Below, piece after piece: positions 425 to 63,769 of a DNA stretch of 64,000 nucleotides. Made by a program: the position numbers and the translations under genes. Source of the DNA: Pontibacter qinzhouensis (GTDB lineage Bacteria; Bacteroidota; Bacteroidia; Cytophagales; Hymenobacteraceae). The notes under the pieces were generated by a model. It searched no databases, was not told the DNA's origin, and saw only the letters and a list, made by a program, of their open reading frames with translations. Every line of letters begins with the position of its first letter. The first letter of the stretch is position 1. The stretch is from contig NZ_VRTY01000024.1 of NCBI RefSeq assembly GCF_008017455.1, positions 1 through 64,000 of the forward strand, in the 5' to 3' direction.

Positions 425-481
425 ACCCTTGGCAACTTTTTTCTAAAATTGCTTCTGGAGGCCATTTTCATTTGAATAATT
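425..481 (-). repeat. 57-bp dispersed element, copy 1 (full length)
   Basis: Read on the minus strand it starts AATTATTCAAATGAAAA, continues with GCCTCCAGAAG and ends GCCAAGGGT, exactly 57 bp. It lies between the tetR start and the end of the RND pump gene and faces copy 2 as an inverted partner. The 341-980 gap holds this, copy 2 and the tetR operator candidate; nothing else was recognised in it. Confidence 0.85.
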
Positions 482-766
482 GACCTGCTGATCAGCTTTA
501 TAGGCTGCGTCTTACCTTTTAGGTATCATAAAATGCCAGACCCTGAAAAATACGGCACACATAGCATAATTCACGACACTCGGTTTTCATGATTTATATG
601 CATAGTTTATCAGACGTAAGAAGCCGGATATTTACCTGCTACACAGGGCTTCTTTCAGATTTAAAAGATGAACAGGTTACAGCCATGCCTATAGCTGCAT
701 GCTTTTCGCCTACAAGATCTGAAGTTAACCATAAAACAATTTATCATCCAACAGCGAACTAGCAGC

Positions 767-823
767 AATTATTTAAATAAAAATGCCCTTCAGAAGGTAT
801 TTAATAGATTTTTTGTCAAGGGT
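767..823 (+). repeat. 57-bp dispersed element, copy 2 (full length)
   Basis: It starts AATTATTTAAATAAAAA, has the core GCCCTTCAGAAGG and ends GTCAAGGGT, exactly 57 bp. It lies 157 bp beyond the stop of the minus-strand RND pump gene, in the polarity seen at other gene 3' ends. Confidence 0.88.
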
Positions 824-980
824 ATGAAGTGGCTTGCGAACAGAGAAACCTTACGACACACAAAACTGCCACCCAGACAAGACCTTGATTTTCTAATAGC
901 TCAGGAAAGGTCTCGTCCAGATGGCAGACAGTAAAAGATAGTATTTACCTTTTAGTTTTTAAACAAGTGTGCTCGTTGCA

Positions 981-3900
981 TTACCTGGTAACATGTTTCT
1001 TTCTGTAGGCTAAGTAATACACCTGCGGAAGCACAATCAGGGAAAGCACCATACAGATCATTAAGCCACCTACTATCATAATAGCCAGTGGTTTTTGTAT
1101 TTCGGAGCCCATGCCTGTGGAGAGTGCCGCTGGCAGAAGCCCGGCAGAGCCCATAATCGCAATCATAAACACAGGCCTGATACGGCTGAACACACCTTCT
1201 GAAATTGCCTGTTGCAGTGGCAGGCCCTTCCGCAGATAATCTTTCATAACGGCAATTAATATGATGCCATCTATGGTGCCTACGCCAAACAAGATAATAA
1301 ACCCGATACCAGCCGATATGCCAAAGGTAGTGCCGGTAAGCCACAACGACAGGAACCCGCCTATAAAGGCAAACGGAATGGTTAACAATGAGATGAGCGT
1401 ATCTTTTAAGCTGCCGAAATTTACGTAGAGCAGGAAAAAGATCATCAGTAGCGAAATAGGCACAATGTAACTGAGCCGCTTTGTCGCCCTTTCTTTGTTC
1501 TCGAACTCACCTGCCCACGAAAGGCGGTAACTCTCCGGCAGCTGCACCTGCGCTTCTACTTTGCGTTGCGCCTCTACTACCGTACTGCCCAGGTCGCGCC
1601 CCCTGATAGAGAAACCCACCGCAATATAGCGGCTGCTGCCTTCGCGGTAGATAAAGGCTGGCCCGGTAAAGGAGCCCACATCGGCTATTTCGTACAACGG
1701 AATCATAGAACCGCTGTTGGCCGGCACCAGAATATTCCGGATCTCTGCTTCTGACTTCCTGAAAGGCTCCGCATACCGGATACGCACATCAAAAATGCGT
1801 TCGTCTTCATAAAAGGAAGTAGCTGCCTTCCCGCCAATCGCCATTTCAATAACGGCTTGTGCATCGGCCATACTTACGCCGTATCGTGCCATGCGGGTTT
1901 CCTCTAGTTTAATCCGGAGTTCGGGCAAGCCGATGTTCCGGTAAATAGTCAGGTCTTGTATGCCCTCTACATCTTTAATGGCCTCTGCTACCTGGTCTGC
2001 GGCACTCTCCAGCTGAAACAGGTCATCTCCGAACACCTTCACCACCAGCGAGCTCTTCACACCCGACACGTACTCCTCCACATTATCCATGATAGGTTGG
2101 CTAAAACCAAACGTGATGCCGGGGTAAACTCCCAGCGATTGCTCCATTTCGGTTAGCAGCTCTGCTTTAGATACAGGACGCGACCAGTCGCCTTCATCCT
2201 TCAGCTGCACATGAAATTCGATGTTGAAGAAGCCGGTAGGGTCTGTGCCATCGTTTGGCCGGCCTGTTTGGGTGAGCACAAACTGCACTTCATCAAACTC
2301 CCGGAACTTGGCTTTCATTTCTTTCGTCAGCTTCACCGACTCCTCCAGGCTGATGCTGTTGGGGAGCGTAGCCCGCACATAAAGCGCGCCTTCGTTCAGC
2401 TGTGGTATAAACTCTGTGCCCAACTGGCTGAAACCGATGCCGCAGGCTATTAACAAGCCGGCAAAGAGACCTATTGTTAGCTTTTTAGAGGCCGCCCCCA
2501 ATTGGTAGAGCTTAAACATGCCGCCCCGAATAAAGTTGGTGATCGGGTTTTCGCGGTCTACCACGTTTTTGTTCAGGAGCACTTTGCACATGGCCGGCAC
2601 ATAGGTTAAGCTAAGCAACACAGCCCCTATTAGAGCATACCCTAAGGTAAAGGCAAGCGGAGAGAACATTTTGCCTTCCACTTTCTGGAACGTGAAGATA
2701 GGCATCAGGGCCACGATCAGGATTATCTGGGCAAAGAAAATAGACTTGGCAACAGACCGTGTCTGGTTCTTGATAATACCCAGTTTCGAGATTTGGTTAA
2801 ACCGTGGCATTCCGAGTTCTTTTGCCCGCTTGTCAAGCCCCACAAACACATGTTCTACCACCACCATGGTGCCCTCCAGGAGCAGGCCAAAATCTACCGC
2901 ACCAATAGAAATAAGGTTGGCAGGAAGCCCCTGTATGCGTAGCATCATAATGGCAAACAAAAAGGCCAGCGGTATAACAGAGGCTACAATAACGGTAGTC
3001 CGCCAGTTAAACAGGAACACGAACACCAGCACCGACACCAGTATAATCCCCTCGAGCAGGTTGTGCGTAACGGTATTTACTGTGTTATCTACGAGTACAG
3101 TACGGTCGTGAAAAGGCACGATTTTAACGTCTGAAGGCAGGATGCGGGTATTCAGCTCCTCGATCTTATCTTTCAGGCGGGTAATTACTTCGCTGGGGTT
3201 TTCGCCCCGGAGCATAATTACAATGCCCTGTACCAGGTCATCGTCGTCGCCTAGTCCTACCTGGCCTAAACGTGGCTTGGCAGCTATCTTTACATCCGCC
3301 ACATGTTTTACCAGCACAGGTGTTCCGTTCACGTTATCGATCAGGATGTTCTCGATATCGCGCACGCTCTCCAGCAAACCAACGCCGCGCACCACATAAG
3401 CCTGGTCGCCGTGGTTAATTACATCGCCCCCCACGTTAATGTTACTGTTTCCTACAGCCTCATACACATCGAGCGGCGACAGGTTATAGTTAGCCAGTTC
3501 TACCGGGTTAACCTGTATTTCATAAATTTTCTCTTCACCGCCAAAACTCACTACTTCTGCAATACCCGGCACACCTACCAGTTCGCGCTCTACCACCCAC
3601 TCGTGTATAGCCGTTAAATCGCTGATCTCCCTCGATTTGCTCTGCAGCACATAACGGAATATTTCGCCGGTTGCGCCGGAAGGTGGCTCTATCTCGGCCT
3701 CTGCCCCTTCTGGTAGTTCTATGCTTTGCAAACGGTTGGAGGCATACTGCTGCGCATAAAAATCATCTACATTCTCATCGAACAGCACCGTTACCACCGA
3801 CAGACCGAAAAGCGATGTTGACCGCACCTGGGCCTTCCGCGGAATGGTGTTCATTTGCCGGGTAATGGGCAGGGTAATAAATTTCTCTATCTCCTCGGCA

Positions 3901-4079
3901 CTGCGGCCAGGCCATTGTGTAATAATCCGGGCCCTGGTATTGGTTACATCCGGAAATGCTTCAATAGGCGTATTTATATAACTTATAACACCTGCTGCAA
4001 CCAGCAATGCCGTCAGGAAAAAGATGATGATGTGGTTTTTTAGAGAGAACGATACTAAACTCTGAACAAATTTATCCAT
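981..4079 (-). CDS. CusA/CzcA-family heavy-metal RND efflux transporter
   Basis: This 1032-residue inner-membrane proton/metal antiporter is the usual length for the HME branch of RND pumps. The first transmembrane helix is near residues 12-32, followed by the large periplasmic loops and a second set of helices. The TM4 signature reads DFGLLLEGTMVVVEH, with D396, E402 and E409 at the spacing of the proton-relay residues D402/D408/E415 of CzcA; the middle Asp is a Glu here. It is the last gene of a TolC-adaptor-pump operon that follows a two-component system. Family knowledge points to Cu/Ag or Co/Zn/Cd export from periplasm or cytoplasm to the outside. The substrate cannot be read from the sequence with confidence. 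Confidence 0.95.
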   Translation of the reverse strand: MDKFVQSLVSFSLKNHIIIFFLTALLVAAGVISYINTPIEAFPDVTNTRARIITQWPGRSAEEIEKFITLPITRQMNTIPRKAQVRSTSLFGLSVVTVLFDENVDDFYAQQYASNRLQSIELPEGAEAEIEPPSGATGEIFRYVLQSKSREISDLTAIHEWVVERELVGVPGIAEVVSFGGEEKIYEIQVNPVELANYNLSPLDVYEAVGNSNINVGGDVINHGDQAYVVRGVGLLESVRDIENILIDNVNGTPVLVKHVADVKIAAKPRLGQVGLGDDDDLVQGIVIMLRGENPSEVITRLKDKIEELNTRILPSDVKIVPFHDRTVLVDNTVNTVTHNLLEGIILVSVLVFVFLFNWRTTVIVASVIPLAFLFAIMMLRIQGLPANLISIGAVDFGLLLEGTMVVVEHVFVGLDKRAKELGMPRFNQISKLGIIKNQTRSVAKSIFFAQIILIVALMPIFTFQKVEGKMFSPLAFTLGYALIGAVLLSLTYVPAMCKVLLNKNVVDRENPITNFIRGGMFKLYQLGAASKKLTIGLFAGLLIACGIGFSQLGTEFIPQLNEGALYVRATLPNSISLEESVKLTKEMKAKFREFDEVQFVLTQTGRPNDGTDPTGFFNIEFHVQLKDEGDWSRPVSKAELLTEMEQSLGVYPGITFGFSQPIMDNVEEYVSGVKSSLVVKVFGDDLFQLESAADQVAEAIKDVEGIQDLTIYRNIGLPELRIKLEETRMARYGVSMADAQAVIEMAIGGKAATSFYEDERIFDVRIRYAEPFRKSEAEIRNILVPANSGSMIPLYEIADVGSFTGPAFIYREGSSRYIAVGFSIRGRDLGSTVVEAQRKVEAQVQLPESYRLSWAGEFENKERATKRLSYIVPISLLMIFFLLYVNFGSLKDTLISLLTIPFAFIGGFLSLWLTGTTFGISAGIGFIILFGVGTIDGIILIAVMKDYLRKGLPLQQAISEGVFSRIRPVFMIAIMGSAGLLPAALSTGMGSEIQKPLAIMIVGGLMICMVLSLIVLPQVYYLAYRKKHVTR

Positions 4080-4103
4080 GTTGTCTTCCTATGTCCCTTC
4101 CTG

Positions 4104-5234
4104 TTATTTCTGGATTTGATTGTAGATGAGCAGGTGGTTTTCTGTCACTACTTTGTCTCCTTCTTTTAACCCATCTCTTATCATAATGGCATCGTCTGTT
4201 TGGTAAACAGGTTCCAGCTGCACAATATCGAAATGGCAGCTATCGCGGTAAACCACCACCTGGTGCCTGGAGTTAGTAAAAATCATGGCCTTGGAAGGCA
4301 ATGAGAGCAGTCTTTCTTCTGTCGGTTTCTGAACCTCCTTCTTCAGGTTCACGGTCACATTCACGAACATTTCCGGTTTCAGGAGCAGGTCGCGGTTTTT
4401 AAGGCGTATGCGGGCCTTCAGCACACGTTCCTGCGAGTCGAATGTATTTGAGAGGCGGTCTATTTCGCCTTCAAACACCTGGTCGGGGTAGGAGCTTGCT
4501 TTTACCTGTACCTTCATGCCCTGCTGCACACTGCTCAGGCTGCCGGCATAAATATTGGCCATTACCCAAACTTCTTCCAGGTCTGTTATGGCAAAAAGTG
4601 GCTCCTCACCGGCTTCTATCTGCTGCCCGCTCACCACTTCTTTCGATAGTACGTAGCCACTGAAAGGTGCCCGCACAAGCAACACGCCTCTTTCGAGGCT
4701 ACCGCCGTAAATTCCCAGGTTTTCCTGCACTTTCTTTATCTCCAGCTGGGCCACCTCTACATCCTGCTGCGCTTCCAACAGGTCTCTTTCAGAGGCCACA
4801 CCATCGGCGTACATTTCTTTTGCAGCCGATAATTGTCGCTGGGCCAGCTTTAGCTGTACCTGCCCGGTGCGCAGTTCTGCATTCAGGCTGCTGAGTTCCG
4901 GGCTTCGTATTTCGAGTAGCACCGTACCTTTTTGTATGTAGTCTCCGAGCGCAAAATTCACCTTCGAAACTACACCATCTAAAAGCGGGATAAACCTAAA
5001 ATACTTTTCGGGGTTGCTCACCACTCTGCCTGTCAGCTGTATGCTGTTGTTAGCTGTAGCCAGTGTTACATCGGCTGTTTTTAAGCTGCTGGCCATGTGC
5101 GCGGGCATGCAATACCCTTCGGAGCTGGCAACTTGTGCTGTATTATCCTGGCTACTGCAGGCTACTAGAAGAAGACAGAAGGTTGCGGCAGAAGCCAGAT
5201 AGATTAGCTTTTTTAAAATTGCTGCGTTTATCAT
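4104..5234 (-). CDS. RND efflux periplasmic adaptor (CusB/CzcB-type membrane fusion protein), lipoprotein
   Basis: This 376-residue adaptor would link the inner-membrane pump to the TolC-like channel. The N-terminus is a lipoprotein signal with lipobox LLVAC (Cys26). Next come a barrel-sandwich half (around 75-110), a coiled-coil hairpin (about 110-170, with ELRTGQVQLKLAQRQL), the second lipoyl half (RAPFSGYVLSKEVVSGQQIE) and beta-barrel domains. CMPAH shortly after the lipobox might bind metal, but this is only an inference. Its ATG overlaps the stop of the upstream TolC-like gene by 4 nt (ATGA), so translation is probably coupled, and the pump gene starts 24 bp after its end. Confidence 0.94.
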   Translation of the reverse strand: MINAAILKKLIYLASAATFCLLLVACSSQDNTAQVASSEGYCMPAHMASSLKTADVTLATANNSIQLTGRVVSNPEKYFRFIPLLDGVVSKVNFALGDYIQKGTVLLEIRSPELSSLNAELRTGQVQLKLAQRQLSAAKEMYADGVASERDLLEAQQDVEVAQLEIKKVQENLGIYGGSLERGVLLVRAPFSGYVLSKEVVSGQQIEAGEEPLFAITDLEEVWVMANIYAGSLSSVQQGMKVQVKASSYPDQVFEGEIDRLSNTFDSQERVLKARIRLKNRDLLLKPEMFVNVTVNLKKEVQKPTEERLLSLPSKAMIFTNSRHQVVVYRDSCHFDIVQLEPVYQTDDAIMIRDGLKEGDKVVTENHLLIYNQIQK

Positions 5235-6547
5235 AAGTCGGTTCCTGTTATATAATTGAGATCTTCTTTTTTTGATTCTATGCTCCTGATGGTGTCGAAA
5301 TACAGGAGTTTATTCTCCTTAAAAGCGTCGAAGAAATCGAGAAACTCCAGCAGGCCAATGTTTCTGCGTTGGAAGTTGCGACTTACCCCTGCCAGCACCT
5401 GGTCCAGGTCGTTTATGTAAGTCTCGTCGATAGATTGGTAGAGGGTAACAAGCTGACTGAAATCCGAGAAGGTTTTTACAACCTCATTCCGAACCTCGTT
5501 TACCTGAAGTTCGTGCACATGCCTGCTCTGCTGTACCCGGATGTTAGCGGCCTGTATGTTTCCTTTGTTACGGTCGAAAAAAGGCAGGTCGAGCGTTACA
5601 CCGAATCCTATAAAGTTAAGCAGTATGTTACCGCCCCGGTCGTAGTTGGTGTTAAAGGCAAGATCCGGAACACGCATAGCGCGCTCCAGCGTGTGCTCCG
5701 CCTGGCTTACCCGAATACCCGATTCAGCTACACGAACCGCCGGGTTATTGCTCTCTGCCAGCACCAGCAGGTTATCGAGCGTCCGGTTCAGGAGCAGGTT
5801 CTGGCCCTGAATCGGGGAAGGCTCGTTCAGGAAAAGCGTCTGCTGAGAGGGAACTAATAACAACGTTTTCAGGTTTTTCTGCACCTCGTTGCTTTCCTGC
5901 ACGGCCTGGCTTAGCTCTGCGCGCAACGACAGATCCAGTGCCCGGATGCGGTAAAAATCGGCTTTAGAGATGTTGCCGTTATTTAGCTGTGCCTCCTGCG
6001 CCCGAATAAGTGGCGTGAGCACCTGCTGCTGCTGTCGCAGTAAGGCAATGTTGTTCTGGTGGTAGAGCAGGTCCGACAGCAGGTTTCTGAATTCTGCTTT
6101 AAGAGACAGCAGGAAATCGGTGTATGCTGCCTGCGCTAAATCGCGGTTCGCTACCTGAAGCGATATGTTTTTCTTACGCTTCCGGGCAGTTTGCACCAGT
6201 TGCTCCAACTGCACCGATAGCTGCCTGTTCTCCCCGAAACCATTGCGGAAAAGCGGTGGATTACCATCGCCGTTGGCTACCTGGTGGGGTGTGGCCCAGA
6301 AGTTAACTTCGCTTATTTCAAGTTCGGGGTTCGGCCATGCCTTCGCCTGCAGAATCTGGGCATCTGCCTGGGCAATGTTGAGTTGTTCGGAGATTAGAGC
6401 AAGGTTCCGCTGCAGAAAAAGAGCTTCTGCCTCTGCCCTTGTGAAAGATACCGTATCGGCTGGCTGGTGCTGCGCCTGCACCTGCACCAGAGGTAACACA
6501 AGTAGTAGCAGAAGCCAGACAGTATGCTGGAATAGTTTTAATGTCAT
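5231..6547 (-). CDS. TolC-family outer-membrane efflux protein (CusC/CzcC-like)
   Basis: This 438-residue protein has a signal peptide (hydrophobic run LLLLLVLPLVQVQAQ) and two long alpha-helical repeats typical of outer-membrane efflux channels (OEP domains about 45-230 and 245-430), rich in Q, L, N and A heptads. It would form the trimeric outer-membrane exit duct of the RND complex. It is the first structural gene of the efflux operon, about 105 bp downstream of the sensor kinase gene, and its stop overlaps the adaptor start by 4 nt. Family assignment is firm; the cargo metal is inferred from its neighbours. Confidence 0.94.
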   Translation of the reverse strand: MTLKLFQHTVWLLLLLVLPLVQVQAQHQPADTVSFTRAEAEALFLQRNLALISEQLNIAQADAQILQAKAWPNPELEISEVNFWATPHQVANGDGNPPLFRNGFGENRQLSVQLEQLVQTARKRKKNISLQVANRDLAQAAYTDFLLSLKAEFRNLLSDLLYHQNNIALLRQQQQVLTPLIRAQEAQLNNGNISKADFYRIRALDLSLRAELSQAVQESNEVQKNLKTLLLVPSQQTLFLNEPSPIQGQNLLLNRTLDNLLVLAESNNPAVRVAESGIRVSQAEHTLERAMRVPDLAFNTNYDRGGNILLNFIGFGVTLDLPFFDRNKGNIQAANIRVQQSRHVHELQVNEVRNEVVKTFSDFSQLVTLYQSIDETYINDLDQVLAGVSRNFQRRNIGLLEFLDFFDAFKENKLLYFDTIRSIESKKEDLNYITGTDL

Positions 6548-6652
6548 AGGTTGCCTGAGTAGCTTTGTAAGTGAACAACAAAGCTACTTCAGCAACATTA
6601 CAGGCTTCTGTGGCCTACATTAGAATACAATTAGAACCCAGTTAACTTTAGA

Positions 6653-8020: not shown

Positions 8021-8702
8021 TCGATTTGTCTGCTAACTGGTACCCGCGCCCTTTAATGGTATGAATAAGTTTGGTAGAAAAATTTTTGTCTATTTTGTTG
8101 CGCAGGTAATTAATGTACACATCTACTACATTGGTATTCGTACTGAAATGAATATCCCAGACAGCCTGCGATATCTCTATCCGCGACAACACCTTTTCTC
8201 TGTTTCTGAGCAGAAAGAGCAATAAATTAAACTCTTTGGGCGTGAGCAAAATGTCGGTTCCTGCTCTTTTTACAGAGTTCTGCTCTACGTTTACTTCCAG
8301 GTCAGCGTACTTATCTGCCTCAAAAATACCTTGTTCCAGTTGCTTGCGCCTTAGGTGCGCGTTTATACGGGCCAGCAGTTCTCTGAAATGAAAAGGTTTC
8401 GACATAAAATCGTCGGCTCCGGCTTCCAGGCCTTTAATTTTCTCTTCGTGGTTGCCCAGGGCACTCAGTATAATTATAATAGATTTTACGTTTCGCCGCC
8501 TTGTAATTTTGCAAACCTCAAAACCATCTATGCTCGGTATCATAATATCCAGAATTACGATATCGTAGTCGTTGCGGCTAATGAGGTCGGAGGCTTCAAA
8601 ACCATCGGTTACCAGCTGCACCTGGTAGCCTTTATCTGTTAAACCTTCTTTTATGAATGATGCCATACTTGGGTCATCTTCAACTAAAAGACATTTTATC
8701 AT
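8010..8702 (-). CDS. OmpR/PhoB-family response regulator of the efflux operon
   Basis: This 230-residue regulator has a receiver domain at residues 1-120: acidic pair EDD near position 8, phospho-acceptor D52 in VILDIMIPSIDG, and the conserved Lys in MSKPFHF. A winged-helix DNA-binding domain (about 130-225) includes LTPKEFNLLLFLLRN and the C-terminal IKGRGYQL. It is the first gene of the five-gene minus-strand set regulator-kinase-TolC-adaptor-pump. The region upstream (8703-8915) contains the terminator of the preceding gene and should contain the operon promoter. Confidence 0.96.
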   Translation of the reverse strand: MIKCLLVEDDPSMASFIKEGLTDKGYQVQLVTDGFEASDLISRNDYDIVILDIMIPSIDGFEVCKITRRRNVKSIIIILSALGNHEEKIKGLEAGADDFMSKPFHFRELLARINAHLRRKQLEQGIFEADKYADLEVNVEQNSVKRAGTDILLTPKEFNLLLFLLRNREKVLSRIEISQAVWDIHFSTNTNVVDVYINYLRNKIDKNFSTKLIHTIKGRGYQLADKSNES

Positions 8703-9368: not shown

Positions 9369-9420
9369 GGTAAAAAAATTTAGTTAAAAAATAAGTAAAA
9401 GGGGTAAGCACTTAAATTGA

Positions 9421-9457
9421 TTTTTGCCTTCTGAAGGCCTTTTTTATTTAAATAATT
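9421..9457 (-). repeat. 57-bp dispersed element, copy 3 (partial)
   Basis: Only the AATTATT-side half is recognisable: on the minus strand AATTATTTAAATAAAAAA followed by GGCCTTCAGAAGGC. The CAAGGGT end is not recognisable. It lies between the PAP2 gene stop and the PepSY-like gene start. Confidence 0.65.
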
Positions 9458-10616: not shown

Positions 10617-10673
10617 AATTATTTACATGAAACTGGCCTCCAGAAGGCTTTTCGTCAAAAGACTGTCAAGGGT
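10617..10673 (+). repeat. 57-bp dispersed element, copy 4 (full length)
   Basis: It starts AATTATTTACATGAAA, has core GGCCTCCAGAAGGC and ends GTCAAGGGT, exactly 57 bp. It lies 72 bp beyond the stop of the minus-strand PepSY-SdiA-type gene. The rest of the 10375-10745 gap shows no gene. Confidence 0.86.
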
Positions 10674-14200: not shown

Positions 14201-14257
14201 AATTATTTGAATGAAAACAGCCTTCCAAAGCAAATTCTGCATTTTTACCTCAAGGGT
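14201..14257 (+). repeat. 57-bp dispersed element, copy 5 (full length)
   Basis: It starts AATTATTTGAATGAAAAC, has core AGCCTTCCAAAG and ends CTCAAGGGT, exactly 57 bp. It lies in the divergent region between the response regulator and tRNA-Ser. The remainder of that gap up to the tRNA holds nothing recognised. Confidence 0.86.
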
Positions 14258-16905: not shown

Positions 16906-16962
16906 AATTATTTGAATGAAAACAGCCTTCCGAAGGTTTTTAGCTCTACTTTGGCCAAGGGT
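16906..16962 (+). repeat. 57-bp dispersed element, copy 6 (full length)
   Basis: It starts AATTATTTGAATGAAAAC, has core AGCCTTCCGAAGG and ends GCCAAGGGT, exactly 57 bp, only 16 bp past the stop of the large acetylesterase gene. The rest of 16560-16978 shows no gene. Confidence 0.9.
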
Positions 16963-18925: not shown

Positions 18926-19061
18926 CAAAATTTCGATAAGGTGGTAAGGCACGTACATCTAACTTGCATTAGGTTTTGCATCTTCATTGGAAACGATTGC
19001 GCTCCCGAAGAAACAGCCATATTTTTACCTCTGAAGGTATTAGGCTTTTATTATAAGAAAT

Positions 19062-19093
19062 ACCTCTGGAAGGCCATTTTCATTAGAATAATT
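19062..19093 (-). repeat. 57-bp dispersed element, copy 7 (partial)
   Basis: On the minus strand AATTATTCTAATGAAAATGG followed by CCTTCCAGAGG is clear; the CAAGGGT half has decayed or is absent. It lies in the 18926-19345 gap between the acetylesterase start and the GH2 stop, which otherwise holds no gene. Confidence 0.65.
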
Positions 19094-24072: not shown

Positions 24073-24129
24073 AATTATTCTAATCAAATAACCCTTCGAA
24101 AGGAATTTTAGCTCAAACTAGTCAAGGGT
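24073..24129 (+). repeat. 57-bp dispersed element, copy 8 (full length)
   Basis: It starts AATTATTCTAATCAAA, has core ACCCTTCGAAAGG and ends GTCAAGGGT, exactly 57 bp. It is the first of three copies in 360 bp between the GH3 and GH43 genes. Confidence 0.85.
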
Positions 24130-24191: not shown

Positions 24192-24248
24192 ACCCTTGGC
24201 TTGGTTTTGCTCTTTTTTCTTCGGAAGGCTCAATTCATTAGAATAATC
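24192..24248 (-). repeat. 57-bp dispersed element, copy 9 (full length)
   Basis: It is inverted relative to copies 8 and 10. On the minus strand it starts GATTATTCTAATGAATT, has GCCTTCCGAAG and ends GCCAAGGGT, exactly 57 bp. It forms a head-to-head pair with copy 8, their CAAGGGT ends 62 bp apart. Confidence 0.82.
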
Positions 24249-24376: not shown

Positions 24377-24433
24377 AATTATGCTAATCAAAATGGCCTT
24401 CAGAAGATATTTTACCAGAATATTGCCAAGGGT
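24377..24433 (+). repeat. 57-bp dispersed element, copy 10 (full length)
   Basis: It starts AATTATGCTAATCAAAAT, has core GGCCTTCAGAAG and ends GCCAAGGGT, exactly 57 bp, 23 bp beyond the GH3 stop. The 23974-24456 gap is mostly made of copies 8-10 and holds no gene. Confidence 0.86.
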
Positions 24434-29257: not shown

Positions 29258-29387
29258 TTTATATGTTATTAACTGATAAATTGTTCGTGTTATGGTTCCT
29301 GACCTTACGCCTGTTTTAGAAGCGCACGATAGCGCTTTCGTTCGCTATCAACGGCGTTACAGTGCAGCAGCACCAGGAGCCACGGCA

Positions 29388-29418
29388 ACCCTGAAAGGCT
29401 ACTTTCATTTAAATAATT
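29388..29418 (-). repeat. 57-bp dispersed element, copy 11 (partial)
   Basis: On the minus strand AATTATTTAAATGAAAGTAG is followed by CCTTTCAGGG. The far CAAGGGT end is missing. It lies between two GH43 genes. A separate short hairpin (GATAGCG at 29328-29334, complement 29343-29349) is nearby. Confidence 0.55.
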
Positions 29419-33407: not shown

Positions 33408-33464
33408 AATTATTCGAATGAAAATGCCCTTCAGAAGGTATTTTAACATTTTAGTCTCAAGGGT
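33408..33464 (+). repeat. 57-bp dispersed element, copy 12 (full length)
   Basis: It starts AATTATTCGAATGAAAAT, has core GCCCTTCAGAAGG and ends CTCAAGGGT, exactly 57 bp. It lies in the gap between the GH97 stop and the acetylesterase start. Confidence 0.9.
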
Positions 33465-33565: not shown

Positions 33566-33622
33566 AATTTTTCTAATGAAAACAGCCTTCAGAAGCTATT
33601 TTTCCGGAATAGTGCCAAGGGT
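33566..33622 (+). repeat. 57-bp dispersed element, copy 13 (full length)
   Basis: It starts AATTTTTCTAATGAAAAC, has core AGCCTTCAGAAG and ends GCCAAGGGT, exactly 57 bp. It is in direct orientation with copy 12 (158 bp offset) and 153 bp beyond the GH97 stop. The 33339-33775 gap has no gene. Confidence 0.88.
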
Positions 33623-37126: not shown

Positions 37127-37502
37127 TTATGTCCGTATTTCAATAGAAAACCCTTTTCCTGAGAAAACGGAGTGCCTCGCCAATGAAAAATTTATGCTAG
37201 CGCGAGCGTCCTCGTTCATGACTTTTATTGCTGGGCCTCTGGCCGCTTTGATCCTATGCAGCCACACTGTTTTTTAATAATAAAGTGAGACAAGCCCAAG
37301 TGAGCCTCGAAGAGTTGCCTGTTTTAGTTAGAGGCAATTCTTCAAATCAAAACGTCCCTCCGGAAATCACTTCCTCTGCTGCTGCTATCAAGCCGACAAT
37401 CAACTTTGATATGGGAAAAACCTGGTTCTGGTATTATGAGCGCTTTGCTACATTCCTGTAGCTTGCCCCGAATACTTAACGCATCCATTATGAGAGTTGC
37501 AA

Positions 37503-38411: not shown

Positions 38412-38690
38412 AGCCTCAGTTGTAAGTTACTTGTTTAACTCCGTCTTTAAATCATTCTCCGTTATCATGACTTCTGTAGTTATAGTTTTGAGCACTTAAT
38501 TACATCAAAACGGTCTTTCTAGGCCTGCTTTTATGCTGATGAAAAACATTAGCCTGAATCTTAATTTCACAGATACGATTTTAGTATCCATTTACGGTAT
38601 ATTAACTCCTATCCAATTAAATGTTAGCAATAAGATTCTCCTGTCCTGCTCGAAGCTTTTCTTATTGCCAACATTTTTTATCATAACTAT

Positions 38691-53030: not shown

Positions 53031-53061
53031 AATTATTCTAATGAAAACGTACCTCCTGAAG
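53031..53061 (+). repeat. 57-bp dispersed element, copy 14 (partial)
   Basis: AATTATTCTAATGAAAAC is followed by CCTCCTGAAG; the CAAGGGT half is not recognisable. It forms an inverted pair with copy 15: 21 bp (53029-53049) are perfectly repeated in inverse at 53285-53305. Confidence 0.65.
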
Positions 53062-53270
53062 TTCTCCTGCTCCTGATGCAGCCATGACACAAACTGCTGA
53101 GGTTATAAAGGCTCAACAAGTGGCTATGCTAAAGCTTCTGCTGTTGCCTCTCGCTACCAAGATCCTTTCAGGAGGACAAAACCGGGTGGCGGAAATAGAA
53201 ACAATTCCTTCCTGGCGCTGCATAAAGCTTACAATGTGTGTTTGTGTACAGCAGCAGTAGTAGTATAAAA

Positions 53271-53303
53271 TACTGCTGGAGGGGCGTTTTCATTAGAATA
53301 ATT
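53271..53303 (-). repeat. 57-bp dispersed element, copy 15 (partial)
   Basis: On the minus strand AATTATTCTAATGAAAAC is followed by GCCCCTCCAGCAG; the other end is missing. It is the inverted partner of copy 14, lying upstream of the HTCS gene. The rest of 52858-53582 holds no gene. Confidence 0.65.
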
Positions 53304-57692: not shown

Positions 57693-57803
57693 AATCGGAC
57701 AAGTTGCTCTCTTTAAACCGGTAATAAACCATTGCAAAAGCTACGATTATCATATTTTATCTCGGTAAGGTAAGGTTATCGCTGTTTAAGCATATAGAAA
57801 TCA

Positions 57804-57841
57804 TGCAATACTTATTTTCCGCGAGAAAAATAAGTATTGCA
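57804..57841. terminator. Perfect 15-bp stem-loop after the HTCS gene
   Basis: TGCAATACTTATTTT (57804-57818) is followed by an 8-nt loop and its exact complement (57827-57841). It lies 111 bp after the HTCS stop and 140 bp before the esterase start. No T-tract follows on the plus strand, so it may be a processed 3' end or an operator rather than a classic terminator. Confidence 0.5.
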
Positions 57842-57981
57842 CTCACTCAAAGTCTTAGCAAGTTTATGAACCAAGATGGAAAGTTTGGATCAGTAACTTC
57901 CGCTATGCCTCATTCAGAGCCTTTACAAAGCGTAGCATGTTATATAGGAGCAAAAAGAAAAACGAATTTGAAATAAGCCAG

Positions 57982-58851
57982 ATGAGAAAAATATTGATAC
58001 TAATTCAGGTAGTGTGGTTTACAATGCAGGTAAGTTATGCCCAAATAACAAATACCAAGATTATCGACAATGGAAGCAAGGGAGACTACAAATCCATTGC
58101 CGTAACGGAAAAATCGCTTCCTGATTTTGTTGTGTACCGTCCTCAAAATATAAAAGAAGCTGTTAAAAAGGAAGGAATGCTACCTGTTATAGTCTGGGCA
58201 AATGGCGGATGCATGAATTCATCTATCCATCACGAACGTCTGCTCTCGGAAGTTGCCTCTCATGGGTACATTATTGTAGCCATTGGCGAACTACAAATGG
58301 CCGTGGAAGAACGAGTACATGCGCACACTACAGACACGGAACTTTTAAAAGGTATCAACTGGATTTCTGAACAGGCGAAGACGAAGGGCAATGACTATTA
58401 TAATAATGTAGACCTAAGTAAAATTGCTGTAGGCGGGCAGTCTTGCGGTGGAGCGCAAGTGATGCGAATTGCGGATGACAAGCGAATAAAAACCTACATG
58501 ATGTTTAACTCCGGCATGGGCGATATGACGATGGCTGGAGCCAGCAAAGAATCTTTAAAAGCATTGCACGGTAAGATCATTTATTTAGAAGGTGGAGAAT
58601 CGGATGTTGCTTATAAAAACGCCCTCCTCGATTACGACCGAATAGATCATGTTCCTATAGTCTTTGCCAACCATTTAACAGCCGGACACGGAGGAACTTT
58701 TGCAGATGAGAATGGAGGATCCTTCGCCAGCATGACACTCGATTGGCTTGACTGGCAGTTCAAAGCCAAAGATAACTCCCACATTTTCCTTCAGAATGAC
58801 TTGACAGCTTATCCGGGCTGGACAGTAAAATCAAAGAACTTCAGTAAGTAG
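57982..58851 (+). CDS. Secreted alpha/beta-hydrolase (esterase-like) of the xylan locus
   Basis: The 289-residue protein is counted from ATG 57982, which starts signal peptide ILILIQVVWFTMQVSYAQ; the frame is open 15 codons upstream. Catalytic triad candidates are S154 in AVGGQSCGGAQV, D208 in EGGESDVAY and H236 in TAGHGGTF, all with normal spacing. The early motif PVIVWANGGCMNSS fits an oxyanion-hole loop. Substrate is unknown; related proteins in polysaccharide loci are annotated as dienelactone-hydrolase-like or acetylxylan esterases. It is on the same strand as the HTCS, 289 bp downstream, so may be separately controlled. Confidence 0.85.
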   Translation: MRKILILIQVVWFTMQVSYAQITNTKIIDNGSKGDYKSIAVTEKSLPDFVVYRPQNIKEAVKKEGMLPVIVWANGGCMNSSIHHERLLSEVASHGYIIVAIGELQMAVEERVHAHTTDTELLKGINWISEQAKTKGNDYYNNVDLSKIAVGGQSCGGAQVMRIADDKRIKTYMMFNSGMGDMTMAGASKESLKALHGKIIYLEGGESDVAYKNALLDYDRIDHVPIVFANHLTAGHGGTFADENGGSFASMTLDWLDWQFKAKDNSHIFLQNDLTAYPGWTVKSKNFSK

Positions 58852-58864
58852 TTAAGTCTGAAAA

Positions 58865-58951
58865 ATGAAAAGTCGGATTTTAAGAGCGTTCCTCATCTCG
58901 ATCTTATTCTTCACTATTTCCTGTTCAGAAAAAGACCCGGCTCCCGCTTGA
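58865..58951 (+). pseudogene. Truncated lipoprotein gene remnant (signal peptide and lipobox only)
   Basis: A 28-codon frame from ATG 58865 encodes MKSRILRAFLIS, a hydrophobic ILFFTISC lipobox and SEKDPAPA, then TGA. This is a textbook Bacteroidota lipoprotein export signal with almost no mature protein. It starts 13 bp after the esterase stop, as an operon partner would. A 57-bp element begins 41 bp after the premature end. I read it as the 5' relic of a deleted lipoprotein gene; a genuine tiny lipopeptide is possible. Confidence 0.55.
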
Positions 58952-58992
58952 ACGTTAGAATTAAGTACATGCATAGTAGTTTTCCCTGGAAG

Positions 58993-59049
58993 ACCCTTGG
59001 CGGAATTTGGATGCAAACCCTTCTGGAGGCTGTTTTCATTCGAATAATT
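58993..59049 (-). repeat. 57-bp dispersed element, copy 16 (full length)
   Basis: On the minus strand it starts AATTATTCGAATGAAAAC, has core AGCCTCCAGAAGG and ends GCCAAGGGT, exactly 57 bp. It lies 3' of plus-strand genes in the mirrored orientation, so polarity relative to the upstream gene is the same as for minus-strand genes. The rest of 58852-59278 holds the lipoprotein remnant and no intact gene. Confidence 0.9.
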
Positions 59050-59278
59050 CAGAAGCAAACACTGAAGTAAGTTGATCTATCTGACAGAACTTTCTAGTTT
59101 GTACTTAGTGCTCCTCCAATTTAATGATCAGACAACGCGGAGGTGCTCAAATTTGTTTTTATTTCTTCAGGAAGTATGCTGTCAGAGAGCAGCGTAAGGA
59201 GGATTAAAACGATTTGCTTAACTTAATTGGTCTAACAAGAATTTTTCAGTTCCATACTCAACGTAAAAGAGCTTCAAA

Positions 59279-59842
59279 ATGAATGCATTATATTCTTGCA
59301 TATCACACTACCATCCTATTTCTTCAGGAGCGTGGGAGGCTCTTTCCAAAACATTGAAACAGGTAGAAATTCCAAGAAATTCTTTTTTGATACAGGAAGG
59401 AATGGTGTGTAACAACTTATACTTTCTGGAACAAGGCTGTCTGCGTGGATACTATACCCTCGATGGGAAGGAAATAACCTACTGGTTCGGCTTCGAAAAC
59501 AATTTCATTACTTCTTTTTATAGCTTTATTTCCCGAAAGCCGGGCATAGAAAACATACAGGTTCTGGAAGACTCTACCTTATGGAGTATTAGTTTTGATG
59601 CTTTAAACAAGCTGTTTGATTTTCATCAAGACCTTGAGCGCCTTGTTCGCATCATAAATGAGCAGTATTATATAAGATTGGAAGAGCGGCTAATGGCTAA
59701 GCAATTCAAAACGGCGCGGGAGCGGTATGAGCAGCTAATGGAAACCTCACCCCATATTCTTCAACGAATTTCCCTCGGGCAAATAGCTTCTTACCTGGGT
59801 ATTAGCCAGGAAACGCTGAGCAGGATACGAAGCAACGTGTAA
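59279..59842 (+). CDS. Crp/Fnr-family transcriptional regulator
   Basis: The 187-residue protein has a cyclic-nucleotide-binding-like beta-roll at about 12-115 (LIQEGMVCNNLYFLEQGCLR, YWFGFENNFITSFYSFIS) and a C-terminal helix-turn-helix (SLGQIASYLGISQETLSRIR). It lacks Fnr-type cysteine clusters. Such short Crp-like proteins in Bacteroidota act as cytoplasmic activators or repressors of small nearby genes. The YiaA/B-like gene follows 82 bp downstream, and a perfect TTGAC-N4-GTCAA site lies between them, so local control of that gene is likely. Confidence 0.92.
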   Translation: MNALYSCISHYHPISSGAWEALSKTLKQVEIPRNSFLIQEGMVCNNLYFLEQGCLRGYYTLDGKEITYWFGFENNFITSFYSFISRKPGIENIQVLEDSTLWSISFDALNKLFDFHQDLERLVRIINEQYYIRLEERLMAKQFKTARERYEQLMETSPHILQRISLGQIASYLGISQETLSRIRSNV

Positions 59843-59853
59843 GATTCTTCCTT

Positions 59854-59871
59854 TTTTGACAATTGTCAAAA
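59854..59871. promoter_or_regulatory. Perfect palindromic Crp/Fnr-type site
   Basis: TTTTGACAATTGTCAAAA is an exact 18-bp palindrome containing TTGAC-N4-GTCAA, the half-site layout used by Crp/Fnr-family regulators. It lies 11 bp after the regulator gene and 53 bp before the YiaA/B-like start. Confidence 0.7.
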
Positions 59872-59924
59872 GAAAGGATTAAGTACTGCTATACCTTTGA
59901 TTCATCATTTAAAGAAAGACAAAA

Positions 59925-60344
59925 ATGAATCAGAAACCATCTAACGCTTTTATCGCTGCCTCTTGGGCTACTTTACTTACGGGAATTACAGCTTACATAA
60001 TCGGGCTGTGGAATGCCGACATGTTACTGAACGAAAAAGGCTACTATTTTACCATACTCATGTATGGCTTATTCTCAGCTATCTCTCTTCAGAAAAGTGT
60101 GCGCGACCAACTGGATGGTATCCCTGTTACTAATATCTATTATGGCCTTAGTTGGTTTTCTACTATTATGGCGGTAGTGTTGCTGACAGTGGGGCTTTGG
60201 AATGCCGACTTGCTCCTGAGTGAAAAGGGGTTTTATGCTATGTCGTTTCTGCTAAGCCTGTTTGCTGCTATTGCCGTTCAGAAAAATACCAGAGACAGTT
60301 TAGCAATAGAAGTGCCCGCTAAGGATAAGGTTGAAATGTATTAA
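59925..60344 (+). CDS. YiaA/YiaB two-helix family inner-membrane protein
   Basis: The 139-residue protein has four transmembrane segments arranged as two copies of the YiaA/B module. The first (about 8-60) contains GLWNADMLLNEKGYYFTIL and the second (about 75-125) GLWNADLLLSEKGFYAMSF. Each is followed by a short QK-x-RD motif (QKSVRD, QKNTRD). The internal duplication is plain. The function of the family is unknown. It is probably controlled by the adjacent Crp-like regulator through the palindrome in front of it. Confidence 0.93.
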   Translation: MNQKPSNAFIAASWATLLTGITAYIIGLWNADMLLNEKGYYFTILMYGLFSAISLQKSVRDQLDGIPVTNIYYGLSWFSTIMAVVLLTVGLWNADLLLSEKGFYAMSFLLSLFAAIAVQKNTRDSLAIEVPAKDKVEMY

Positions 60345-60984
60345 CTGTGAGGCAAAAGTTTGTATTGCCGTTAAAAAATAAGGCGCTGCCCTATTACACA
60401 TTCAGAGGTTAACTCCTCCTACCGGATTGACAGCACCCGCGTTGAAAGTATACTGCTCATAAAATAACCTAAAATTAAACATTGGCTAGCTTCAGGTATG
60501 CGTTAAGTTCGACCCAAGATCTTGCCGCGTAAGTTAAGTTGTTGACATAAATTCACTTCTTTTCCTCATGCTTAAAAGTGGTTTAGTCGCTGGTTACGGT
60601 GCCGCTGTATTCATCAGTGAGCTGCTTTTGCTAAGGGCGAACTCAACAGGCTAAAGTATGCAATTCTGGTCTTCCATTACTAGCGACCTTCCCGCCTCAG
60701 AAATTTGGGTGCAATGGAGCTTAATTAATTGTACTATACAAATAAATCCGTAGAATTATAAAAAATTAGTTGAATTATTCCGCTAAACATGGAATCAATA
60801 CTGTCGCCTTTGTGTCTATCTTTTAACTTTTAGCCAAAGTTGATTCTTATAATCTTAGATTCTTTTTTAGTCGGTATGATAGGGTAGTCTGTGGCTACCC
60901 TTTTCCTTTTCAGAACCTGCCGCAAAAGCCTCTTTACTCCATGTCCTTTTGCCAGACAATACAATGTAAGGCAGCCAATCCCGG
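60345..60984. other. Intergenic region without recognised gene
   Basis: No CDS longer than about 28 codons looks credible. The only structure seen is a short hairpin at 60882-60900 (GGGTAG/CTACCC) followed by TTTTCCTTTT on the plus strand, which could be a weak terminator, though no plus-strand gene ends nearby. No 57-bp element copy was found here. Confidence 0.5.
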
Positions 60985-62058
60985 TTATCTGAAGTATATG
61001 GTAAAAGTGGTCCCTTCCCCCACCTTGCTCTCCACCTCAATCGTGCCGCCCATGTCTTCTACCATACCTTTTACAATGAAGAGACCTACACCGGTGCCTT
61101 CTACATTGTCATGCAGTCTGGTGTAGCGGTTAAAGATTGCCTGTTGCTTGTCTTCCGCTATACCCACCCCGTTATCGCAAACTCTCAGCAAAATGTATTC
61201 TCCTGACTTCTCTGTTGTAATGGTAATCGCAGGCTCTACAGTTGGCTTTCTGTACTTGATGGCGTTTGAGAGCAGATTGTAGAGAATACTTCTGACATTC
61301 TTTCGGGAGAAGCGTATCTCAGCTTCCCTGATCCGGGTGCTGATCGTTGCCCGGGTCTCCGCTATCTTATCACGGAGGGCCAGCTTGGCGTCTTCGATCA
61401 CATTCTCAAAGTTCACACGCTCAGGCTCCCTGGCAAACTCCGTGTCGTTCTCTATATCAGCGAGCTCTTCCACTGTTCTGCGCAGGTTAACCACCGACTC
61501 GCTCAGCATATGAAAAATCTGCCTGTTGTCCTCCTCACTCTTTGAAGTCTCACTTAATATCCTGATCAGGCCCTCTATGTTGGAGAGCGGCCCTTTGATG
61601 TCGTGGGAGATGGAATGGATGATGTTCTCGTAGTTCCTGTTCAGCTTCTCGTACCCCTTCAGTATCTGGATACGGTCGTTAATATCGATGAAGGTGATGA
61701 TGACACCGTTTGTCCTGTTCTCCTTCTTGATGATGTAGGGCAGGATGTTCATCTGGTACCAGACCTTATCGGTGGTCTGGATCTCCTTCTCCAGATCTTT
61801 GCTGCTCCCGATCACCTCAGAGATGTTCTCCACGATGGTCGGGAAGCGGATATTGTTGGACACTTCTTCTATATGCCTGCCCACATCGCTGTCCGAGAGT
61901 TTGAAGTGCTTCATGGCGGCAGGTGTGAATTTGCGCAGGATCAGGTTGGCATCTACGAATAGCTGCGGTATGATGGTGTTGTTGAAGTAGTTCTCAAGTT
62001 CATCGTTCAGCTCAATAAGCTTCTCAAGTTTACCTGCCTTATTAGATGGGTCTCCCAT
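60985..62058 (-). CDS. PAS-domain sensor histidine kinase
   Basis: This 357-residue protein has no transmembrane segment, so it is probably cytoplasmic. A PAS domain (about 25-125) starts IIPQLFVDANLILRKFTPAA and ends with GVIITFIDINDR. HisKA follows with H152 in IIHSISHDIKGPLSNIEGLI. The HATPase domain has the N-box LLSNAIKYRKP, G1 VCDNGVGIAED and G2 GTGVGLFIVKGMVEDMGG. PAS domains of this style resemble those linked to CheR-type proteins. No response regulator is adjacent, so it is an orphan kinase in this window; its signal is unknown. Confidence 0.93.
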   Translation of the reverse strand: MGDPSNKAGKLEKLIELNDELENYFNNTIIPQLFVDANLILRKFTPAAMKHFKLSDSDVGRHIEEVSNNIRFPTIVENISEVIGSSKDLEKEIQTTDKVWYQMNILPYIIKKENRTNGVIITFIDINDRIQILKGYEKLNRNYENIIHSISHDIKGPLSNIEGLIRILSETSKSEEDNRQIFHMLSESVVNLRRTVEELADIENDTEFAREPERVNFENVIEDAKLALRDKIAETRATISTRIREAEIRFSRKNVRSILYNLLSNAIKYRKPTVEPAITITTEKSGEYILLRVCDNGVGIAEDKQQAIFNRYTRLHDNVEGTGVGLFIVKGMVEDMGGTIEVESKVGEGTTFTIYFR

Positions 62059-62313
62059 TACGAATGACTTTTTGTCTGGTTTACTTACGTAAAGGTACCA
62101 ATTCAGGAGTACTATTTACTTATTATCTGAACAGGTGCTTATACACAGTGGTTTTAACAAATAGGAGGTAACCTGAACAGGTAAACATATCAAATTCACT
62201 TGCCCTTTACTGTGAAAGCTGATTCGGACAATGTAGTTCAGGTGAAATAAGGTGAAATTAGAAATCCAGGATAAAGATGTAACTATACCTTATTTCATTT
62301 GTTGTCAGTTACG

Positions 62314-62679
62314 TTATGGCGTTCTCAAAATCTTTTCCATCTTACGTCCTTTTGCTAATTCATCTACCAGCTTATCGAGGTACCGTACACGTTGCGTTAA
62401 CGGATTTTCTATTTCTTCTACACGATAGCCACAAATTACACCCGTAATCAGGTGAGCTTTGTCGTTCAGTTTAGCATTCTGAAAGAATTGCTCAAAGGTC
62501 AGGTTCTCCTCCATCAGCATTTGCAACTTGCCTCCGGCATAACCTGTTAACCACTCTATAACTTGATGCAATTCTTCCTGCGTCCTGCCCTTCTTTTCAA
62601 CTTTTGCCAGGTAATGCGGGTAGACCGATGCAAACGTCATTTTAGCGATTCGCTCGTCATGGTTATTTGCTTTACTCAT
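62314..62679 (-). CDS. DUF2200 domain-containing protein
   Basis: The 121-residue soluble protein matches the small DUF2200 family along its whole length, with landmarks AKMTFASVYPHYLAKVEKKG, IEWLTGYAGGKLQ, LITGVICGYRVEEIENPL and VRYLDKLVDELAKG. The function is unknown. It is a single-gene unit flanked by about 250-bp gaps without recognised features. Confidence 0.88.
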   Translation of the reverse strand: MSKANNHDERIAKMTFASVYPHYLAKVEKKGRTQEELHQVIEWLTGYAGGKLQMLMEENLTFEQFFQNAKLNDKAHLITGVICGYRVEEIENPLTQRVRYLDKLVDELAKGRKMEKILRTP

Positions 62680-62909
62680 TTCTTTAACTTATTACAATAA
62701 AGCTATTTATCATTTATTTTTTGCTATAGTGAGTAGCCTAGCTGAACTTATCCGGATCGCTTTCGTCGTTTTTAAGGTCAGAACACATATCATCAAATCT
62801 CTTACATACTTGAAATAACTCGCAGATGCAGGGTTTTCAGATATAAGTCATTCAGCTACTTGTACTTATGAGAGCCTCAGTTTGTCGGTAGTAACTGTAC
62901 TTATTTTTT

Positions 62910-63260
62910 CTAGGCTGTCTTTATCACAAAAGCCTTTAATTCAGCCATCTTACCGTCGCGAAATCGCCAGACGTCGCAATAGGTGTATTCGGCAGTTTCT
63001 CCTGCTTCATCCTTTAATTTAATTTTACCGAGGGCTGTCACATAATCACCTCCGGCTATCAGGTTTTCGACCATGAATTTTGGCGGCTCCAGGTAAGCAG
63101 TTGCCATCCACTGCCGAACGGCTTCCTTACCTTGCAAGGCCGTATCGCCAATAAATGTCCATACCGTGTCGTCGGTGCAGAAAGACAAAAACCCTTCGTT
63201 ATCACCCTTTGTAACAGCCGCGTTTGCCTTTTCCAGTATTGCTATATTGTCCTCTATCAT
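62910..63260 (-). CDS. SnoaL-like/NTF2-fold protein
   Basis: The 116-residue protein has the cone-shaped NTF2 fold pattern: an N-terminal helix (IAILEKANAAVTKGD), FLSFCTDDTVWTFIGDTALQ, GKEAVRQWMATAYL and C-terminal strands (YTYCDVWRFRDGKMAELKAF). This places it in the SnoaL-like/ketosteroid-isomerase-like superfamily. No catalytic assignment can be made from sequence alone. No partner gene is visible. Confidence 0.88.
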   Translation of the reverse strand: MIEDNIAILEKANAAVTKGDNEGFLSFCTDDTVWTFIGDTALQGKEAVRQWMATAYLEPPKFMVENLIAGGDYVTALGKIKLKDEAGETAEYTYCDVWRFRDGKMAELKAFVIKTA

Positions 63261-63588
63261 ACTCCGGTTTATTTAACCTTAAGTTATAGAAATCGCCTTT
63301 GCCAAGCAAATTCCTGCCTGCTACAGATAATTCTCAGAAATTAACATGTTATTCTCATTTTAGCTATTATAGCCTGTCCTACAGGAAATACGGCAGAAAC
63401 TCATACCTTGAATCTGGAACAACGGCACCAGAAAGTGTAAAAAACCTGCGAAATAATTTATTGGTTCAGGATAGTTTACAGGTGAAACACGTGTATGGTG
63501 CAGACAGCAGAAACAGCTTGGCGAGGCACCAGGCACAGGCAAATAATCTTACAAGCTTTATTACACCTGTTTTCAGTTTTAGCTTCCA

Positions 63589-63645
63589 AATTATTCAAAT
63601 AAAAACAGCCTCCAGAAGGTTTTTTAGCAGAATTTTGTCAAGGGT
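63589..63645 (+). repeat. 57-bp dispersed element, copy 17 (full length)
   Basis: It starts AATTATTCAAATAAAAAC, has core AGCCTCCAGAAGG and ends GTCAAGGGT, exactly 57 bp. It lies in the divergent gap 63261-63863, 124 bp before copy 18 and in the same direction. Confidence 0.9.
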
Positions 63646-63712
63646 TTACCAGACATCTTTTTGGTACATGTACTGTGTGTTGCACAAAATTTTACCTGTC
63701 GGGTTATTTTCA

Positions 63713-63769
63713 AATTATTCTAATGAAACTGGCCTTCCAAAGAAGAAACGAGCGAAATTAGTCAAGGGT
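63713..63769 (+). repeat. 57-bp dispersed element, copy 18 (full length)
   Basis: It starts AATTATTCTAATGAAAC, has core GGCCTTCCAAAG and ends GTCAAGGGT, exactly 57 bp. Nothing else was recognised in this gap. Confidence 0.88.

Follow-up and report, generated by a model that had tools for sequence, protein, structure and literature searches.

The 64,000-bp stretch of Pontibacter qinzhouensis DNA analysed here (the window) carries dispersed copies of a 57-bp element that has conserved left and right modules and a variable middle, and that recurs throughout the genome of the species (G000; 6.2 Mb in 220 contigs). On balance, and at about even chances, we read these copies as a lineage-specific family of DNA recognition sites that is held by selection and whose right half differs between species through change at the existing sites. 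On the same reading the element would be a double-stranded DNA recognition site, and neither an RNA nor an actively moving repeat. The two-part binding site that a first-pass annotation of the window had offered as one option is supported by the strong left and right modules, their fixed spacing and the physically constrained middle. A sister species, represented by genome G026, carries a related element, often at the same places.

The element in the window and across its genome

All 13 full-length copies of the first-pass annotation were confirmed in the window in coordinates, in 57-bp length and in end motifs, and they align without a gap; ten lie on the forward strand and three (425, 24192 and 58993) on the reverse strand. 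The partial copies that the annotation had added are also real, with seven found (six left modules and one decayed copy at 38494-38550), for which a length of 57 bp was assumed. All copies are given below by window position, with G026 counterparts given by their position on C22 of that genome.

425..481, reverse: full 57-bp element, CAAGGGT type
767..823, forward: full 57-bp element, CAAGGGT type
9401..9457, reverse: left module intact, right end degenerate
10617..10673, forward: full 57-bp element
14201..14257, forward: full 57-bp element
16906..16962, forward: full 57-bp element
19037..19093, reverse: left module intact, right end degenerate; C22:7417 at the matching place (3 bp off), same orientation
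24073..24129, forward: full 57-bp element; G026 has an element at the matching place, oriented oppositely
24192..24248, reverse: full 57-bp element
24377..24433, forward: full 57-bp element
29362..29418, reverse: sister-type copy with CTG-rich right half; likely counterpart C22:15038 (by alignment)
33408..33464, forward: full 57-bp element; C22:20404 at most 3 bp from the projected place, same orientation, with CTG-type right half
33566..33622, forward: full 57-bp element; no G026 counterpart seen
37336..37392, forward: sister-type copy with CTG-rich right half
38494..38550, forward: decayed copy; counterpart C22:26858 better preserved
53031..53087, forward: sister-type copy; likely counterpart C22:41392 (by order and orientation; outside the 15-bp test)
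53247..53303, reverse: sister-type copy; counterpart C22:41698 (order and orientation agree)
58993..59049, reverse: full 57-bp element within a longer repeat resembling a miniature inverted-repeat transposable element (MITE)
63589..63645, forward: full 57-bp element within the longer MITE-like repeat
63713..63769, forward: full 57-bp element

Genome-wide, the pattern AATTATTNNAATN{15,45}CAAGGGT has 755 exact matches in G000 (392 on the forward and 363 on the reverse strand), and the same pattern read backwards, used as a chance control, has none in the 6.2 Mb. A sample of 1,198,263 bp (19% of the genome) contained 364 left-module matches when up to 7 mismatches in 30 were allowed; of these, 302 also had a right end (at most 2 mismatches), and about 1,570 copies per genome are extrapolated from this sample. 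The invariant length claimed in the first-pass annotation holds in the window, not genome-wide: 230 of the 302 full copies measure 57 bp, 68 measure 58 bp and 4 have other lengths. The consensus is AATTATTYNAATGAAAAYRGCCTYCMRAAGG, a variable middle, then GYCAAGGGT. Base composition changes sharply at the element boundaries, and the information content is 65.6 bits per site, against 13 bits needed to find the sites. Left-module matrix scores are bimodal, with 356 places scoring at least 5 and 339 of these at least 28 (reversed control: 1), and they show few decayed left modules.

The middle is constrained physically, not base-specifically. Columns 33-36 are all A/T in 177 of the 230 57-mers and columns 43-45 in 197, and the A-or-T tracts of the middle lie about 10 bp apart. 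Within A/T tracts of the 57-mers AA or TT is preferred over mixed steps, and at columns 43-44 the steps AT, TA, GC, CG, GT or TG occur in 0.14 of copies against 0.46 expected. To the right, a strand-neutral rhythm of A/T dinucleotides extends 30-40 bp beyond the element, with a period of 10.25-10.5 bp in pooled copies (10.0-11.0 by length class) and peaks at about +12 and +21.5, plus +31 in 58-mers. Over the first 40 and the first 70 bp this rhythm was reached in 0 of 500 row rotations for 57-mers (n = 230) and for 58-mers (n = 68) alike; from +40 to +120 it was significant in the pooled set only (p 0.002; 0.082 and 0.116 by class). It persists when copies resembling the arm of the MITE-like repeat are removed (0 of 300 at each of three cuts), and no such rhythm was found alongside 86 non-element YCAAGGG sites (where 280 of 300 rotations gave as strong a signal). 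On the left flank, all 298 G000 copies taken together gave no such rhythm (p 0.09), with 57-mers alone showing a 12.25-bp peak (p 0.002); a mirror centre is only weak (r = 0.50). Because the A/T tracts are phased, tracts and flank rhythm together suggest DNA that is bent or wrapped on a protein.

Two side observations concern this genome. At L056 (2264-2500 and 3700-3900) left modules are joined to long low-complexity intergenic arrays (TTAGATGCTAGA..., AACAATCAGCAACTAAC...), and of 298 copies 43 have words of the AACAATCAGCAACTAAC kind (at least three in 60 bp) on their left and 2 on their right. Contig C29 (L148, 15.6 kb) is 98.2% identical to G026 over its entire length, which would indicate recent transfer or contamination; it was excluded from the masked-alignment and block-distance counts given below and included in the 1.198-Mb sample.

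Species distribution, shared places and gene context

The full pattern matches 4 of 59 genomes, G000 included; the other matches are one true 57-mer in G026 and one chance-like match each in G004 and G038. The left module alone gave 832 pattern matches in G000, 1,266 in G026 and at most 2 in each of the rest of 390 genomes of the order, with any match in 16 of the 390 (own genome included); this pattern has a variable-length gap, by which one place may count twice, and a fixed-gap pattern gives 730 in G026. With a stricter pattern and one genome per species for 84,980 species, only Pontibacter beigongshangensis T6-1 was found (41 stretches), in a collection where records of the window's own genome were possibly hidden. 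We take G026 to be P. beigongshangensis (family Hymenobacteraceae). Among 49 other genomes of the genus compared at one 3.3-kb locus, it is nearest to G000, with 75-79% DNA identity against 64-74% (long matches) for the others. Its copies (136 in 408 kb, about 1,900 by extrapolation) have the same left module and an A/T tract, followed at about positions 37-56 by a CTG-rich stretch that replaces CAAGGGT. One copy searched against phage and plasmid collections had no match at E 0.01, the Rfam scan of the window returned tRNA only, and nothing recognisable appeared among the papers listed for this repeat or for Pontibacter repeats; within the window's Rfam scan and the literature searched, the element is, as the first-pass annotation had said, no recognised named family.

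Other abundant words were seen in the genus. A third Pontibacter genome, G028 (L321 and L322, C36:200001-240000), has a high-copy element of its own around CTGCCACCACAGCC, with 369 exact copies genome-wide and at most 3 in each of the 49 other genus genomes searched. The octamer AAGTATAA, seen at L331, L332 and other genus loci, occurs at about 20-fold over base-composition expectation in pooled other-Pontibacter DNA (132 in 172 kb; orthologous loci together with a single outgroup locus and a single locus of G028, the octamer being absent from part of the loci). Counts in single genomes are 9 and 6 in 10 kb of G001 and G020, and 6 in 36 kb of G025; they are near expectation elsewhere, at 56 against 53.7 in G000, 33 against 24.7 in G026 and 1 against 1.1 in 40 kb of G028.

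A 41-kb syntenic stretch (window 17-57.7 kb against C22 of G026) contains shared element sites. Places were compared more widely by a block-distance test, using G000 elements in or at most 450 bp from a conserved block and a tolerance of 15 bp beside and 30 bp inside blocks. Among 82 such elements, a G026 element stood at the matching place in the same orientation in 28 cases and in the opposite orientation in 3; the 28 comprise 21 beside blocks, 6 inside blocks and 1 judged to be a coding chance match. In 200 shift controls, made for the beside-block test only, same-orientation matches had a mean of 4.0 and a maximum of 10, and opposite ones a mean of 1.6. Flank similarity exceeded the 99% level on at least one side in 16 of the 27 kept pairs. 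The right half of the paired elements follows the species: CAAGGGT (at most 2 mismatches) is present in 24 of 27 G000 members and 4 of 27 G026 members, and at least four CTG-type words in 4 and 21, respectively. Unrelated positions between the species had first been suggested by 19 gene pairs, a view reversed by the syntenic stretch and the block-distance test.

The G000 copies look intergenic. In 611 kb of G000 with naive gene calls, 96 of 167 full copies lay in tandem, 38 in convergent and 15 in divergent gaps, 13 inside ORFs (open reading frames) and 5 at edges. The first-pass annotation had placed all copies between genes; the 13 copies inside ORFs (93-297 aa, taken as the caller gave them) include those of the window at 16906, 63589 and 63713. 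In coding DNA (ORFs of at least 150 aa), sites with a score of 5 or more number 9 in 908 kb of G000 and 4 in 687 kb of G026, and component words in it are mostly near expectation (highest G000 ratio 1.55). Stop-facing sides lay within 100 bp of the gene end in 80 of 172 cases, against 26 of 126 start-facing sides; divergent gaps hold 15 copies against about 33 expected from gap length, and near stops the element runs antiparallel to the gene in 55 of 80. In the window, the overlap of the copy at 14201-14257 with a response-regulator ORF that has a TTG start is confined to the 5' end of this ORF, and the first domain there starts at residue 74. Nearby, a 560-aa protein encoded at 14877-16559 matches the Helicase-associated (HA) domain seven times and no further Pfam family at E 1e-5.

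A proposed recognition site weighed against its alternatives

As recognition sites, the copies would be read by a conserved DNA-binding protein at the left 31 bp, where two imperfect dyads are visible by eye (TTATT-YN-AATRA and CCTYC-n-RAAGG), and at the CAAGGGT end. The DNA between and beyond the modules would be bent or wrapped, so that helically phased A/T tracts would suffice in the middle and in the first 30-40 bp rightward. The sites must at some time have spread by copying, since a 65.6-bit site could not have originated 1,570 times by chance, and would now be held in place by purifying selection, because middles are saturated, decayed left modules are few and places are shared. Often near gene 3' ends, they could be where a nucleoid-organising or topoisomerase-like complex docks. 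The sister species would have kept the left half and altered the right half at the same places, as expected if the right-half partner changed; that the right half differs at shared places is the ground for proposing such a change. The data themselves show the copy number, the near-fixed length, the lack of RNA covariation, the phased tracts with the flank rhythm, shared places with unlike right halves and the bimodal scores; protein binding, selection on each site and the docking function are what we infer.

Several results weigh against recognition sites of this kind. No binding protein was identified, and the information content is far above that needed, an unusually strong consensus being described as untypical of regulatory binding sites (PMC1626085, in part). 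In G026 (n = 127) the right flank has no significant A/T rhythm (73 and 36 of 300 rotations), and its left flank is rhythmic (2 of 300), the side where the 298 G000 copies show none. Pairs of copies with at most 8 differences are in excess over shuffling (52 vs 19.6), the 25 closest pairs listed coming almost all from one subfamily embedded in a longer repeat. The bias to gene 3' ends could merely reflect avoidance of promoters. Alignment with elements masked gave same-orientation overlaps in 7 of 21 and an opposite one in 1, against a 28% null, and lends no support to shared places. Gaps with an element in G000 only (2), in G026 only (3), in both (15) or in neither (19) show that sites are also gained or lost between the species. 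At seven variable left positions, counterparts in the 16 flank-supported pairs were slightly more alike than random pairs (0.598 vs 0.484; random reaches the observed value in 24 of 2,000), and over a wider choice of positions they were no more alike than random (27 pairs, 409 of 2,000; 11 pairs, 286 of 1,000). Since counterparts resemble each other little or no more than random pairs, continuity of each single site is not proven.

Somewhat unlikely, in our judgement, is a non-autonomous mobile element resembling a MITE, a repetitive extragenic palindromic (REP) sequence or a REPIN (REP doublet forming hairpins), spread by a transposase that needs the ends and lets the middle drift. Such an origin would fit the high copy number in two sister species only (among the sets searched), the sharp ends with information far above chance, and a 13-kb G000 stretch with no aligned G026 block that holds six good left-module matches and one weak one; REPINs likewise have conserved ends and a variable spacer (PMC3116915, in part), and 11 copies lie inside a longer MITE-like repeat. 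Against it, decayed copies are few, the element ends are not inverted repeats, many copies share place and orientation with the sister species, and none of the 26,335 pairs among the 230 57-mers, drawn from 19% of the genome, lies within 3 differences. Nearest-neighbour distances differ little from those of block-shuffled copies (10.34 against 10.57 for 57-mers, 12.74 against 12.74 for 58-mers). No clean empty site was found among the matches listed, many of which are self-matches. G000 has five Y1_Tnp genes, and all five loci (L064-L068) were scanned for the element: one 57-mer lies at a distance of about 900 bp from the L065 gene, the L064 gene has a weak left-module match beside it, a weaker one is in L066, and L067 and L068 have none. 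At L064, L065 and L067 each gene, which resembles those of REP-associated tyrosine transposases (RAYTs), is flanked by REP-type repeats of its own, for example CGCGAGCTTTCAGCTCGTGG beside L067. The joint recognition of the ends by a transposition enzyme that the first-pass annotation had suggested is not supported, given that the three RAYT-like loci read have their own repeats, that no near-identical copies were seen in the sampled 19% of the genome and that many sites are common to the sister species.

The longer MITE-like repeat is about 140 bp, has ends resembling terminal inverted repeats (GTACATGCA, by eye), and contains a 57-mer; the threshold applied gave 11 copies of it in 1.2 Mb. As to a larger known transposon, which the first-pass annotation had asked about, in-register similarity beyond 57 bp was traced in this one subfamily; flank similarity is also widespread, 300-bp flanks resembling another copy's flank in 143 of 298 cases on the left and 87 of 298 on the right. 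These resemblances are partly overlapping neighbours and low-complexity arrays, as seen in the best 40 pairs per side.

We also entertain, as an unlikely extension, a genome-wide marking system in Pontibacter with species dialects, read by a trans-acting wrapping or uptake complex whose shift in specificity would have led to the rewriting in place of more than 1,000 sites. Its dialects would be the 57-bp site with two modules in P. qinzhouensis, a site in P. beigongshangensis that combines this left module with a CTG right half, the unrelated CTGCCACCACAGCC element in the third species and the AAGTATAA octamer in several others.

A DNA-uptake-type signal, kept by biased uptake and recombination and diverging into species dialects, seems to us quite improbable. 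Uptake signal sequences (USS) and DNA uptake sequences (DUS) resemble the element in copy number, consensus, stable places, dialects and spaced A/T tracts (PMC1626085 and PMC3630211, each in part), and the octamer AAGTATAA is very frequent in DNA of several other Pontibacter, with counts near expectation in G000, in G026 and in the small amount of G028 DNA covered. However, 65% of Haemophilus influenzae USS lie in genes (PMC1626085, in part), against the 9 sites in G000 coding DNA; component words there are mostly near expectation, intermediate matches are nearly absent, and 57 bp far exceeds the reported cores of 9-10 bp. Such a drive explains the dialects and the strong consensus, not the near-absence from genes.

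The structured RNA named as an option in the first-pass annotation found no support: RNAalifold predicted 0 base pairs in the 13 window copies, and by mutual information with average product correction over the 230 57-mers the 27 strongest pairs are all at most 2 columns apart, the next pair (21,32) and a few other long-range ones being weak (z 3-5). That the element acts as RNA, in transcription termination or at mRNA 3' ends, is highly improbable, for although copies favour gene 3' ends, mostly antiparallel to the gene, and some show CCTTCnGAAGG followed by T's, there is no consensus fold or strong long-range covariation, both orientations are used, and the A/T rhythm is strand-neutral and runs past the element. 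Three further readings were rejected: a terminator hairpin, whose stem lacks strong covariation with its extensions (only weak (21,31) and (21,32)); pairing of the two A/T tracts, which is weak (82 T-A, 49 T-T, 14 A-T, 10 A-A); and a coding origin of the left half (wobble-like NYSNENxLxK, by eye), since the mix of 57 and 58 bp breaks any single frame across the middle and the sites look intergenic.

If the recognition-site reading is true, the copies would represent a high-copy class of bacterial DNA site distinct both from structured RNAs and from elements that are mobile today, often at the same places across species, with half of the sequence changing in concert. They would then offer a natural experiment on the co-evolution of a DNA-wrapping protein and its ~1,500 sites. 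To our knowledge, nucleoid organisation and DNA uptake signals have been little studied in this phylum.

Comparison with known systems

For none of the REP, MITE, uptake-sequence and gyrase-site families was membership of the element established. Like REP sequences and bacterial interspersed mosaic elements (BIMEs) with their RAYTs, it is high-copy, intergenic, species-limited and often near gene ends. Unlike them, it has no consensus stem-loop and no GTAG or CGTC tag, a REP feature at one end (PMC3733652, in part), its ends being AATTATT and CAAGGGT; it flanks no RAYT gene in the loci read, is 57-58 bp long with unlike ends, and often occupies places common to both species. With REPINs it shares conserved ends, a variable spacer and a set spacing (PMC3116915, in part), but REPIN ends are inverted REP copies that fold into a hairpin, whereas the ends of the element differ and do not pair. 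Terminal inverted repeats as in MITEs and REPINs are absent from the element, whose ends are not complementary; similar ends occur in the longer embedding repeat only.

USS are reported to have thousands of copies, a strong consensus, positional stability, dialects between clades and A/T tracts whose centres lie 12 positions apart (PMC1626085, in part), and dialects are also reported for DUS (PMC3630211, in part). The element has a similarly high copy number and strong consensus and dialects between clades, and its A/T tracts are spaced by about one helical turn; it differs in its 57-bp length, in its near-absence from genes and in having almost no intermediate matches.

Gyrase cleavage sites are overrepresented in BIME-2, and for the Escherichia coli enzyme a 130-bp motif is described in which G/C content is phased at 10.75 bp (PMC6379681, in part; see also PMC12393610, in part). 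The element has a strong base-specific left module and, in G000, a rhythm on its right side only, unlike the E. coli motif, which is symmetric and degenerate. The resemblance, to be taken as an analogy, lies in A/T phased against G/C with a period of about 10-11 bp and in a position often downstream of genes, as at strong gyrase sites (PMC6379681, in part).

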